Program-made: the position numbers and the translations under genes
Origin: Puniceibacterium antarcticum
GTDB lineage: Bacteria; Pseudomonadota; Alphaproteobacteria; Rhodobacterales; Rhodobacteraceae
Assembly: GCF_002760615.1 (NCBI RefSeq)
Contig: NZ_AWWI01000040.1
Coordinates: 1-64,000 of the forward strand
Direction: 5' to 3'
Length of the DNA stretch: 64,000 nucleotides
The notes under the pieces: generated by a model
The model's input: only the letters and a program-made list of their open reading frames with translations
Told to the model about the DNA's origin: nothing
Database searches by the model: none
Shown here: positions 10,027 through 45,924 of the stretch, piece after piece
Position numbering within the stretch: the stretch's first letter is position 1
Layout: every line of letters starts with the position of its first letter

Positions 10027-10631
10027 TCAACCTCGCACAGGACGGCGGGCTCTGGACGGTCACGATCAACCGTCCGGACAAGGCCAATTCGCTGACACCA
10101 GAGATGTTGGAGGAGCTGTGCCGCATCGTCGAATCCGCGCGCGAGGCGCGTGCCCTGATCCTGACCGGTGCGGGCAAGGTGTTCAGCGCCGGCGCTGATC
10201 TGGATGCGGCGCGGGCTGGCCTTGCCGTCTCACCCCTCTGGGAACGTCTTTCCGGGGCGCTGCTGCGGCTGAACGGGCTGACCATCGCCGCGCTGAACGG
10301 CACCGCCGCTGGTGGCGCGCTTGGCATGGTGCTCGCCTGCGATCTGCGCATCGCCGTGCCCTCGGCAAAAATCTTCTATCCGGTGATGAAACTCGGCTTT
10401 TTGCCACAGCCCTCAGACCCCGCGCGCCTGACCACACTGGTCGGGCCGTCCCGGGCCAAGCTGATCCTGATGGCAGGTCAAAAGATCCCGGCCGAAGAGG
10501 CGCTGATATGGGGCCTGATCGACCGCATCACCCCACCGGAAACGCTCCTGACCGAGGCTGCGACCCTCGCCGCCGACACGATGGGCGCGACCACGGACCA
10601 TGCGGCGGCGATCAAGGCGCTGATCCGCTAG
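10023..10631 (+). CDS. Short crotonase-superfamily protein
   Basis: A 202-residue enoyl-CoA hydratase/isomerase homologue, shorter than the usual ~255-260 residues because the C-terminal helices are cut back. The acyl-CoA oxyanion-hole regions are present (GKVFSAGADLDAA and NGTAAGGALGMVLACDLRIA). By eye the two catalytic glutamates of classical hydratases are missing: the PEI-type position reads YPVMKLG, and the second falls in SRAKLILMAG. A hydratase function is therefore doubtful; isomerase, thioesterase or lyase chemistry is possible. It is translationally coupled to the SDR gene upstream. Confidence 0.82.
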   Translation: MINLAQDGGLWTVTINRPDKANSLTPEMLEELCRIVESAREARALILTGAGKVFSAGADLDAARAGLAVSPLWERLSGALLRLNGLTIAALNGTAAGGALGMVLACDLRIAVPSAKIFYPVMKLGFLPQPSDPARLTTLVGPSRAKLILMAGQKIPAEEALIWGLIDRITPPETLLTEAATLAADTMGATTDHAAAIKALIR

Positions 10632-41852: not shown

Positions 41853-42151
41853 GGCCTGCTTCGAGTTGTTTCCTGCATTCGGATACGCGAACGCCGTTGC
41901 ATAGCAAGCAAAAACGAGCAGCCAGATGAAAACGAGAGAATATAACGCACAATCGGACCAATTGTTTCAGTTAAAACGGCCGGTATCCAACAGTCATCAG
42001 GACAACTGTGATCTGCAAAGGGCGGTCAGCCGCGCTCAGGAATAGGTCCGAGATGAGCTCTCGCCGCAAAAACGTCCTTTATCGCGTTCGAGGTCTCGGA
42101 GCCGCGCGTTGTCTGGCAGGAACTGGGCATCAAACACCAAAGGAGTTCCCA

Positions 42152-43156
42152 ATGCGCACCCTAACCTTAGCCTTTTTCTTCACCTTTCACATCACCACAG
42201 CGACGGCAAATCCGGTCGGTTTTGCCGCCCTCACTACTCCGGGGATCGACTCCGTGGTCTGGTATCCGACGTCAGAGACAACCCCCGTGACCATAGTCGC
42301 CGAAAATCCCGTCTTTGTCGGTGTGCCGGTGGTCCAGAATGCATCCGTCGCGGGCGGGCTGCACCCCGTTGCTGTGCTGTCGCATGGCTATAGCGGGATG
42401 TGGCGCAATCAGGCCTGGCTGGCAGAGCGGCTGGCCAGCGCCGGGTATATCGTCGCCTCCCTCAACCATCCGGGCACAACCTATGGCGATATGGATCCGC
42501 TCTGGGCAAGCGAACCCTCAAATCGTCCAAAGCAGCTGTCTAGGGTTCTCGATGCCCTGCTCGCGGACAAAAGCCTTGCCCCTCAGATCGACAGAAATCG
42601 CATTTCGGTGATCGGTCACTCGCTGGGCGGATCAACGGCGCTGATGCTTGCGGGCGGTGCGTTTTCGACCGCGCGGCTGCTTGAGGCCTGCGGCGACAGC
42701 ACTGACAAGATGGTCTGCACCGTCTATCGCAAGGATGGCGCGGAAGCGGATGCCCCTTTGGCGACGACCCGCGATTCTCGCATCATTGCAGCTGTGCTGT
42801 TGGACATGGAAGGCATCCGCGGCTTTACGCCCGAAAGCCTGAACAGTCTGCCGATACCGGTTCTCGCTCTGGCAGCCGGGATCGAGGACCCTGCCCTTCC
42901 CCTTGGCTGGGAAAGCCGTGAACAGGGTGCCCGTCTGCCGACAGCAACCTCGCGTTATGCGGAAATCATCGGGGCGACGCATTTTAGCTTTATGAGTGCC
43001 TGCAAGCCCGGCGCAGAAGATTTGCTGGGCGAGGATGCCTATGTCTGCCGAGGGGAAACCGCGCCCCGGGTCGAGCTGCACGCCGAGATTGCGAACACAA
43101 TCATCCGCTTTCTGAACGCCGGTACACAGTTGGTGTCTGCCCTGCAAACGCCCTGA
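42152..43156 (+). CDS. Secreted alpha/beta hydrolase
   Basis: A 334-residue exported esterase-like enzyme. Signal peptide LTLAFFFTFHITTATA, then VVWYPTSE, a conserved VLSHGYSGMWRNQAWLAERLASAGYIV (oxyanion region), the nucleophile elbow GHSLGGST, and an acid/histidine region LAAGIEDP ... GATHFSF. The layout resembles dienelactone-hydrolase or PAF-acetylhydrolase-like lipases. AAAGGAG precedes the ATG at 42152. Its last 56 bases overlap the end of the convergent AraC-type gene, which points to close linkage of the two genes. Substrate unknown. Confidence 0.85.
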   Translation: MRTLTLAFFFTFHITTATANPVGFAALTTPGIDSVVWYPTSETTPVTIVAENPVFVGVPVVQNASVAGGLHPVAVLSHGYSGMWRNQAWLAERLASAGYIVASLNHPGTTYGDMDPLWASEPSNRPKQLSRVLDALLADKSLAPQIDRNRISVIGHSLGGSTALMLAGGAFSTARLLEACGDSTDKMVCTVYRKDGAEADAPLATTRDSRIIAAVLLDMEGIRGFTPESLNSLPIPVLALAAGIEDPALPLGWESREQGARLPTATSRYAEIIGATHFSFMSACKPGAEDLLGEDAYVCRGETAPRVELHAEIANTIIRFLNAGTQLVSALQTP

Positions 43157-44096
43157 AGGCACGGTTGAAGTTGGACTTGGTCTGGAAACCGGCATCCAGC
43201 ATCACCTGCGTGACGGTTTGATCGCTTTCCTTCAACAGGCGCATCGCCTCGCGTACGCGATAGCCGTTGACCAGATCGCTGACGCTGCAGCCCCGCGCCT
43301 GATTCACGGCCTGCGAAATCTTGCGGGCCGTGAGCCCCGTCCGGCGCGCCAGCCGCTGAAGGGTCAGGTCGGGATCCCGGTACAGACCCTTAGCCAGCGC
43401 CGCCTCGACACTTGCCAGAATAGCCTGCGCTTCTTTTGGGTCGGGGAAGACAACGGGCTCCTTTATCTGTGCCGCTTGATAATGTTCCTGTGGCACCGTG
43501 TCGGCGGTGCGCATCAAAAGCGCCCCGGACAGGCCAATCAGCATGACGCTCATCATGGCAGCAACGACCGGGGCCGCGCCACCACTTCCCCCCTCGCTCA
43601 CGACACTCCAAACAGCGGCATCTACACAGGCACTGAGCACAAGCAGCCCCGCAACCCCATGACGCGCCTGCGAAACAGCCCATTCATCGCCGATCCGGAC
43701 CTGCGCCAGCACATCATCCGGCAGGCGCAGCCGCAAGATCCAGAACCCGTACAAAAGGAACTCTACTATAAGGAGTGGATCAATCGCAGCGGGGCGCAGA
43801 AACCACGCAAGGATAAGGACAAGCGGCCAAAGCATGTGCCACCACGCAGCTTTTTCACCGCGCAGCGAGCTGAATGCGGCCCAGGCAAGGGGCGGCAGGC
43901 ACGCTGCCAGAACGGGCTGAAGGATGCGCAGAGCACCAAGGTCAACGCTCCAGCGCAGGCCGACAAGCGCTGTCTGAACCGCGCAACCCGCGACAAACAT
44001 CAGAAACAAGGGCTGCGACTGCCGCGTCCGGAGCATCCGTACGAGCACCAATAGCAGGCAACCGCTGACGATGAACGGCAAAGGAATCGCTGGCAT
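43101..44096 (-). CDS. Membrane-anchored AraC-family regulator
   Basis: A 331-residue regulator. The first ~200 residues are hydrophobic, with about six or seven helices (for example PFIVSGCLLLVLVRML, ILQPVLAACLPPLAWAAF, LWPLVLILAWFL). The C-terminal ~100 residues form the double helix-turn-helix of AraC proteins (TLQRLARRTGLTARKISQAVN and VTQVMLDAGFQTKSNFNRAF, closing QTPTVYRR). Such membrane-AraC proteins are known as a class, but the signal here is unknown. It ends inside the 3' end of the alpha/beta hydrolase gene and is divergent from hisS. Confidence 0.88.
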   Translation of the reverse strand: MPAIPLPFIVSGCLLLVLVRMLRTRQSQPLFLMFVAGCAVQTALVGLRWSVDLGALRILQPVLAACLPPLAWAAFSSLRGEKAAWWHMLWPLVLILAWFLRPAAIDPLLIVEFLLYGFWILRLRLPDDVLAQVRIGDEWAVSQARHGVAGLLVLSACVDAAVWSVVSEGGSGGAAPVVAAMMSVMLIGLSGALLMRTADTVPQEHYQAAQIKEPVVFPDPKEAQAILASVEAALAKGLYRDPDLTLQRLARRTGLTARKISQAVNQARGCSVSDLVNGYRVREAMRLLKESDQTVTQVMLDAGFQTKSNFNRAFRAFAGQTPTVYRRSESG

Positions 44097-44336: not shown

Positions 44337-45659
44337 ATGGCAGGCGTCAAGACCAAGCTCAACTTCGCGATCAGCGGCTTTCCTGAATTCACCCCTGAAG
44401 TCCGCGATGTGGAGCGGCGCTGGCTGAGCCTCCTCGCGGATGTGTTTGAAAGCTATGGCTACGCCAACATCGAAACGCCCTCGGTCGAGACGGTTCAGAC
44501 CCTCGCGTCCAAGGGCGAGGATGTGGACAAGGAAATCTACGCCCTGACCCGCCTTGCCGCCATTGGCGAGACGACAAGCGCAAAGCTTGCCCTGCACTAT
44601 GACCTGACCGTGCCAACCGCGCGGTATGTGGCCAAGCAGCACGGCAATCTCACCTTTCCTTTCAAGCGATTCCAGATGCAACGCTGCTGGCGCGGCGAAC
44701 GTCCGCAAGAGGGACGCTACCGCGAATTCACCCAGTGCGACATCGACGTGATTGATCAGGATACGGTGTCTCTGTCCTATGATGCCGAAATGCTGGAAAT
44801 GGCGGTTGTCGCCCTGACCCGCCTGAATGTCGGACCTGTCAAGTTCCAGGTGTCCAACCGCAAGATCATGGATGGGCTTGCAACTCACCTTGGCCTGCCC
44901 GATGGTACTTTGCTCGCGCGGATCCTGGACAAGGTCGAAAAGCTGAGCACAGAAAAGCTGTCTGAACGCCTGACCACCGAACTGGGACTCGATGCGGCAG
45001 GAATCGACACCTGCATCTCCTTTTGCAAGATCAAGGGCGGCCCCGATGCGATTGCAACTGGTCTGGACGCGCTGGGAATTTCAAACCCTGATGTCGATGC
45101 GGGGCGTGATGCGCTGTGCAACCTCCTGGCGAGGGTCGAGAAGAGTCGTCCCAAGGGGTTCATCATCGACGGCGATCTCGCGATCTCGCGCGGCTTCGAC
45201 TATTATACCGGCGTCGTCTACGAGGCGAGGTTCATCGACTTCCCCGACTATCCGTCGATCTGCGCAGGCGGACGATATGAAAACCTTGTCGGGCAATTCA
45301 TGAAGCGCAAGCTGCCAGGCGTCGGCATTTCGATCGGTCTGACTCGGATATTTACCAAACTGCTCAGCGAAAGCTTGCTTGAGACAGGCCGACGCACCCC
45401 GACCGAGGTTCTTGTGGCAGGAGACGAGTCGCTGACCGCAGCCGAGGCCGAGGCGCTGGCTGCTGAGATCCGCGCAACCGGCGCGAATGTTGAGATTTTG
45501 CCGGACGTGCCACGGCTGGACAAACAGCTGAAATATGCGAATGACAAGGGGATCCCATACGTCTGGATCATCCGCGACGGCGTGCATCAGTTAAAGGACA
45601 TGACTTCAGGCGTTCAGCAGGCCATTACGGTCGAGGCATTCGCTGCATCCCGCGCCTGA
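44337..45659 (+). CDS. hisS: Histidyl-tRNA synthetase, non-standard type for this group
   Basis: A 440-residue class II synthetase charging tRNA-His. Visible are motif 2 in RCWRGERPQEGRYREFTQCD, the histidine-binding loop RGFDYYTGVVYEA, CAGGRYENLVG, and the C-terminal anticodon-binding fold (TEVLVAGDES ... YVWIIRD). Its opening (AISGFPEFTPEVRDVERRWL) and LHYDLTVPTARYVA are unlike the E. coli-type enzyme. They are also unlike the long alphaproteobacterial HisRS, which usually sits with hisZ and hisG; none is here. From memory it resembles HisRS of actinobacteria and some scattered proteobacteria. A tRNA-His gene follows 189 bases downstream. AAAGGGA precedes the start. Confidence 0.9.
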   Translation: MAGVKTKLNFAISGFPEFTPEVRDVERRWLSLLADVFESYGYANIETPSVETVQTLASKGEDVDKEIYALTRLAAIGETTSAKLALHYDLTVPTARYVAKQHGNLTFPFKRFQMQRCWRGERPQEGRYREFTQCDIDVIDQDTVSLSYDAEMLEMAVVALTRLNVGPVKFQVSNRKIMDGLATHLGLPDGTLLARILDKVEKLSTEKLSERLTTELGLDAAGIDTCISFCKIKGGPDAIATGLDALGISNPDVDAGRDALCNLLARVEKSRPKGFIIDGDLAISRGFDYYTGVVYEARFIDFPDYPSICAGGRYENLVGQFMKRKLPGVGISIGLTRIFTKLLSESLLETGRRTPTEVLVAGDESLTAAEAEALAAEIRATGANVEILPDVPRLDKQLKYANDKGIPYVWIIRDGVHQLKDMTSGVQQAITVEAFAASRA

Positions 45660-45694
45660 CAATTCCGGTCAGCCAACCACCTAAAACACCAGAA

Positions 45695-45719
45695 ACTGAG
45701 CGTCCTAGGGTCGCTCAGT
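45695..45719 (+). terminator. Hairpin after hisS
   Basis: ACTGAGCG (45695-45702) pairs with CGCTCAGT (45712-45719) around a nine-base loop, about 35 bases after the hisS stop; only a short T-run (CTTTTG) follows ten bases on. Probable terminator separating hisS from the tRNA gene. Confidence 0.55.
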
Positions 45720-45848
45720 GTACTTAGCTTTTGACAAGACCTTGTTCTCGCGTGGCTTTGCACGGAAATGCCTGAACGGAACAGTGCGGAAAATTAGCCA
45801 AAAGCCTATGGACAAGCTGGAAAGCACAGGCTAAGTGCAAGCCACTGC

Positions 45849-45924
45849 GGCGACTGTAGCTCAGCGGTAGAGCTCTCGGTTGTGGTCCGAGTGGTCGCGG
45901 GTTCGAACCCCGTCAGTCGCCCCA
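45849..45924 (+). tRNA. tRNA-His (anticodon GTG)
   Basis: The cloverleaf folds cleanly: acceptor GCGACTG (45850-45856) with CAGTCGC (45914-45920), D-stem GCTC/GAGC, anticodon stem CTCGG/CCGAG with loop TTGTGGT, and T-arm GCGGG-TTCGAAC-CCCGT. The extra 5' G-1 is encoded at 45849 and faces C73 at 45921; CCA (45922-45924) is encoded. G-1:C73 is the standard bacterial tRNA-His identity pair. It is the only tRNA in the window and sits directly after hisS. Confidence 0.95.

Follow-up and report, generated by a model that had tools for sequence, protein, structure and literature searches.

Why should a genome of the Rhodobacteraceae encode a HisRS and a tRNA-His of the canonical type? In the RRCH clade, to which this family belongs, tRNA-His carries A73, G-1 is not encoded, and a derived Gly replaces the Gln in motif 2 of HisRS (PMC3937112; PMC9976931; PMC4284800); the Gln is the ancestral residue, paired with G-1:C73 (PMC3937112). 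The two systems are orthogonal, since in Caulobacter E. coli HisRS or tRNA-His(CUA) alone gave no amber suppression, whereas the pair did suppress (PMC3875453). The stretch of Puniceibacterium antarcticum DNA analysed here (64,000 nt, referred to as the window) carries a canonical hisS followed by a tRNA-His gene (Table 1). The initial annotation had read them as a canonical-type pair transferred into a clade whose usual pair is divergent and lacks G-1, which our results bear out, and had offered three roles: a second, independent charging pair, a replacement of the original pair, or resistance to a HisRS inhibitor. As detailed below, only the replacement has held up.

By membership in the TIGR00442 family, the product of the window hisS is classed as a HisRS: it scored 315.9 bits, above the curated cut-off of 286.75, over residues 12-431 and thus at full length, and it stayed far under the cut-offs of the HisZ models. 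Its motif 2 tRNA-binding loop reads ERPQEGRYREF and so contains the Gln (Q124) of canonical His identity. In a PDB search the best match was 3net (E 4e-76), E. coli HisRS following at E~2e-17, and the enzyme is indeed not of the E. coli type, as had been claimed. Together with its tRNA it shares the encoded G-1:C73, the ERPQ loop and the RGxDYY and GGRY motifs with canonical bacterial pairs, from which it differs in being linked, in lying inside the RRCH clade, in occupying a long branch within its subtype and in being nearer to 3net than to E. coli HisRS. The tRNA-His(gtg) was the sole tRNA that ARAGORN detected in the window. Its acceptor stem is GCGACTG/CAGTCGC, and G-1 follows the hisS stop codon after 189 nt on the same strand, in agreement with the initial annotation. 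The tRNA gene has a probable promoter of its own, so that the tRNA need not depend on transcription of hisS. With a GC content of 0.586, hisS is close to the window as a whole (0.608), which suggests that its entry was not very recent or that the donor had a similar composition.

Table 1. Features of the hisS and tRNA-His cassette in the window.
Feature	Position	Strand	Description	Basis
hisS	44337..45659	+	HisRS, 440 aa, canonical-identity type; the genome's sole complete HisRS gene	TIGR00442; genome searches
Motif 2 loop codons	44697..44717	+	E121-R-P-Q124-E-G-R127	Alignment, motif comparison
Probable tRNA-gene promoter	45809..45837	+	TATGGACAA-N15-GCTA; kept in 4/4 cassette carriers; putative function	Intergenic alignment
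G-1 of tRNA-His	45849..45849	+	Genome-encoded	Sequence
tRNA-His(GTG)	45850..45924	+	C73 at 45921, CCA encoded; the genome's only tRNA-His	ARAGORN, RF00005 search

The genome from which the window derives (G000) is a draft of 5.55 Mb in 189 contigs, estimated to be 100% complete. In the TIGR00442 search the window gene was its sole full HisRS match. Two weaker matches came from hisZ, which is split over contigs C104 and C66; hisZ and hisG lie there, away from the window, and the annotation was right that they are not neighbours of hisS. Weak partial matches were found on contigs C182 and C121. When the RRCH HisRS of a congener (G001) was used as query, only the window gene was retrieved, at 32% identity. 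A genome-wide listing of tRNA-His genes (RF00005 search and ARAGORN) yielded a single one, with G-1 and C73, among 42 tRNA genes. Thirty of these loci and one Cys tRNA were typed by ARAGORN, inspection by eye showed two others not to be tRNA-His, and the rest of the RF00005 matches measured 81-87 nt, the size of tRNAs with a long variable arm. Matches to a loose anticodon-loop pattern (92, most of them due to chance) were left out of the analysis.

Five congeneric genomes were compared (G000 to G004, G003 being only 78% complete), and each encoded exactly one HisRS, of the cassette type in G000, G003 and G004 (the carriers) and of the RRCH type in G001 and G002. Among the carriers the HisRS proteins are 86-90% and the tRNA-His genes 99% identical, and the order of hisS and tRNA-His is kept; its conservation in two congeners argues that the pairing is not due to chance. 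The RRCH enzymes of G001 and G002 are 83% identical to each other and 32-34% identical to the window HisRS, which therefore is not of the long RRCH type, again as annotated. In motif 2 the carriers read ERPQEGRYREF and the non-carriers EKPGPGRFRQF (RRCH loop EKPGPGR). The tRNAs differ accordingly: G-1, G1:C72 and C73 in the carriers, with encoded G-1 and C73 also present in Phaeobacter sp. CECT 5382, against T-1, T72 and A73 in the non-carriers. Measured against the RRCH pair (no G-1, U72, A73 and Gly), the window pair thus has G-1, C72, C73 and the motif 2 Gln, and its genome has hisZ-hisG without hisS instead of hisS-hisZ-hisG. In a tree of hisG and part of hisZ the carriers were monophyletic (support 99/99). 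They also share the neighbourhood of the insertion, with a desaturase gene upstream and sugar transferase/YjbH genes downstream; two-component genes accompany the desaturase in G000 and G004. Contamination was rejected, the cassette having the same neighbours in three separate assemblies. In the window, hisS is flanked by two-component genes, a desaturase, a hydrolase, an AraC-type regulator and exopolysaccharide genes, none of which supports inhibitor resistance; with nothing else in its favour, this role was dropped. In G000 the desaturase and hisS are separated by the alpha/beta hydrolase and AraC-type regulator genes (42008-44096), and no counterparts were found at the matching place in G003 and G004.

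What became of the native genes can be read from their former loci. The native order, seen in G001, is a lipoprotein gene, a small gene, hisS, hisZ and hisG. Between the small gene and hisZ there are ~1650 nt in G001 versus about 370-420 nt in the carriers, with unchanged neighbours. The annotation had envisaged a second hisS near hisZ/hisG, and the search found only a scar there: the hisS leader and the intact start, ATG GCC AAG, survive in all three carriers, and the sequence from there to hisZ is unrelated. Within the scar of G003, 78 nt match the hisS 5' end at 73% identity (E 2e-5). The native tRNA-His of G001 and G002 sits between two conserved genes, which in G003 and G004 are separated by only ~12-14 nt, compared with 229 nt in G001; in G000 the left flank of this locus runs on without a tRNA. 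Judged from these sequences, both native genes, hisS and tRNA-His, have been deleted in the carriers and hisZ-hisG has been retained. Histidine synthesis requires hisZ-hisG, the short HisG being HisZ-dependent. Within the hisS scar of G000 (L069, about 10090-10140) and of G003, a GC-rich palindrome followed by GAGGATATTT was observed. This REP-like palindrome might have contributed to the loss of hisS. Related motifs occur three times in the window (4527, 7346 and 13158), compared with 0.27 expected.

We consider it very likely that a linked canonical hisS and tRNA-His entered the ancestor of a sub-clade within a single genus of the Rhodobacteraceae and took over from the native RRCH pair, which was then deleted. 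Gene content, identity bases, scars and phylogenetic distribution are direct observations. A cassette consisting of a G-1:C73 tRNA and a HisRS with Gln in motif 2 would have arrived in this ancestor. Because RRCH and canonical pairs would not cross-charge, a foreign HisRS or a foreign tRNA alone would have been useless, and only enzyme and tRNA together would have worked at once. With both pairs present, His codons could have been read by either tRNA, and the native pair would have turned dispensable and been lost, restoring the ancestral identity rule; such redundancy predicts that the two native genes are lost together. RNase P retains G-1 on the mature tRNA where the extra G-1:C73 pair exists, and the Gln of the window enzyme would be matched to this pair in the window tRNA. 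Charging specificity, the order of events and transfer in a single piece are what we infer. Against the last of these, the linkage could post-date entry: among the best 80 HisRS loci a linked tRNA-His (within about 4 kb) was found only at the Phaeobacter locus, the other 79 having none, so that no linked donor pair was among them.

Replacement of a synthetase by transfer is well known. The divergent RRCH pair (Caulobacter; PMC9976931, PMC4284800; as a synapomorphy, PMC3937112) serves the same essential function as the window pair and is used by the window's relatives, but is displaced here. E. coli HisRS/tRNA-His(CUA) in Caulobacter (PMC3875453) is likewise a canonical pair in an RRCH host; it is, however, an engineered suppressor working beside the native pair, whereas the window pair is natural and the native pair is lost. 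A synthetase and tRNA identity changed together after lateral transfer in CPR bacteria, where archaeal-type TyrRS and TrpRS occur with matching tRNA identity, so that for Tyr and Trp a coupled identity change is already on record (PMC5370408). That case involves other amino acids and another lineage, while the present one is confined to one genus and comes with linked genes, scars and native-type congeners. No report was found, in the open-access literature searched, that a linked HisRS/tRNA-His pair had reversed the RRCH His identity. In the RRCH, the A73, G-1-less tRNA-His has counted as uniquely derived and as defining the clade; here a lineage appears to have returned to the earlier state through joint import of enzyme and tRNA, and treating the trait as an irreversible marker calls for caution. 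Scars and native-type congeners make a natural exchange of an essential synthetase/tRNA identity rule testable, and such closely related hosts would supply naturally compatible orthogonal HisRS/tRNA pairs.

The other readings differ in what they make of the native pair and of the source of the cassette. A canonical-type pair inside an RRCH-clade genome could be a second, orthogonal pair coexisting with the native one, as the initial annotation supposed. This is very hard to credit: with one HisRS and one tRNA-His in the genome it is refuted for the assembled sequence by the TIGR00442, RRCH HisRS protein, RF00005 and RRCH tRNA DNA searches. The protein query found no RRCH HisRS in the three carriers, the RRCH tRNA-His DNA query matched in G001 and G002 and in none of the carriers, and both native loci are deletion scars. 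The annotation had also associated a vertical history with a single hisS and a single tRNA-His that both group with vertical Rhodobacteraceae sequences; the single copies were found, but neither groups in this way. Still less credible is that only the enzyme was foreign and that, once it had arrived, mutations gave G-1 and C73 back to the native tRNA-His. Since tRNA identity can shift through few base changes, this route is open in principle, yet the window tRNA-His is only 61-66% identical to RRCH tRNA-His, has a shorter D loop (75 vs 77 nt) and occupies another locus, the old one being deleted. With the C73 tRNA-His of the Phaeobacter cassette, and with those of two other alphaproteobacterial families, it shares 85-89% identity, and this greater proximity points to import rather than back-mutation. 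As for the source, the HisRS tree united the four cassette enzymes in a clade (100/100) whose branch is long (1.53) and which groups with Magnetovibrio/Tagaea-type alphaproteobacterial HisRS (99/92). The AU test rejected a grouping with RRCH HisRS (p=0.0005); a grouping with the Nocardiopsis/Streptomyces type was worse than the best tree and, at p=0.061, above rejection level. This value and the 46-49% identity to Nocardiopsis/Streptomyces-type HisRS speak for a pair from Actinobacteria, a grouping that the initial annotation had raised as a question, but given the placement in the best tree we regard it as improbable. From the tree, the donor was probably an unsampled lineage near the Magnetovibrio/Tagaea-type alphaproteobacteria, the long branch making it uncertain. 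A plasmid- or phage-borne cassette was rejected, as no close relative was found on plasmids (best 48%, an Embleya megaplasmid) or viral contigs (best 39%), nor any plasmid counterpart of the window region. HisRS sequences 47-48% identical to that of the window do occur on large Embleya replicons listed as plasmids in PLSDB (NZ_CP108777.1, 1733230-1734492, and NZ_CP108785.1), where no gene is listed at these sites. More distant relatives (31-39% identity) lie on eleven contigs of the viral collection IMG/VR (L277-L287), which may be phage genes or host contamination.

How often displacement took place depends on the distribution of the cassette. Among 394 family genomes from 393 genera, a HisRS match at E<=1e-70 was obtained in the window's genus only (0/392 other genera). 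A family-wide tRNA-His pattern, which missed sequence variants and hence gives a partial survey, matched in 29/248 genomes, 27 of them with A73, and C73 was seen only in G000 and G004. One further Rhodobacterales carrier was present in the named genome collection, namely Phaeobacter sp. CECT 5382 (L140), with a HisRS 68% identical to the window's and a G-1:C73 tRNA-His ~390 nt downstream of hisS. Its hisZ-hisG are present with hisS not adjacent, neither native hisS nor RRCH tRNA-His gave a DNA-level match in its genome, and its cassette neighbourhood is unlike that of the window. Between G000 and this strain, the cassette HisRS (68% identity) has diverged to a degree similar to that of the resident hisG (74%) and hisZ (68%). 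Two histories are compatible with this: separate transfers, the donors being related, or one old acquisition in a common ancestor, after which both pairs coexisted for long and were lost differentially, the cassette in most lineages and the native pair in a few. The similar divergence and the single, exclusive clade of cassette HisRS favour the old acquisition, which would, however, require that almost every other genus has lost the cassette and that both pairs still coexisted in one genus. The intermediate to be expected, a genome carrying both pairs, was not found, and the genomic neighbourhoods differ; we therefore think an old acquisition unlikely. Repeated displacement would make the cassette a self-sufficient, horizontally mobile identity unit that took the place of the native pair in two or more Rhodobacteraceae lineages independently (the sub-clade and Phaeobacter sp. 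CECT 5382), mutual orthogonality making only the linked pair transferable; we put this forward tentatively, as a serious possibility. In Phaeobacter sp. CECT 5382 an enoyl-CoA hydratase-like ORF (named by eye; L274, 3188-4090) lies upstream of hisZ, at the place where the window's congeners have hisS or the hisS scar.
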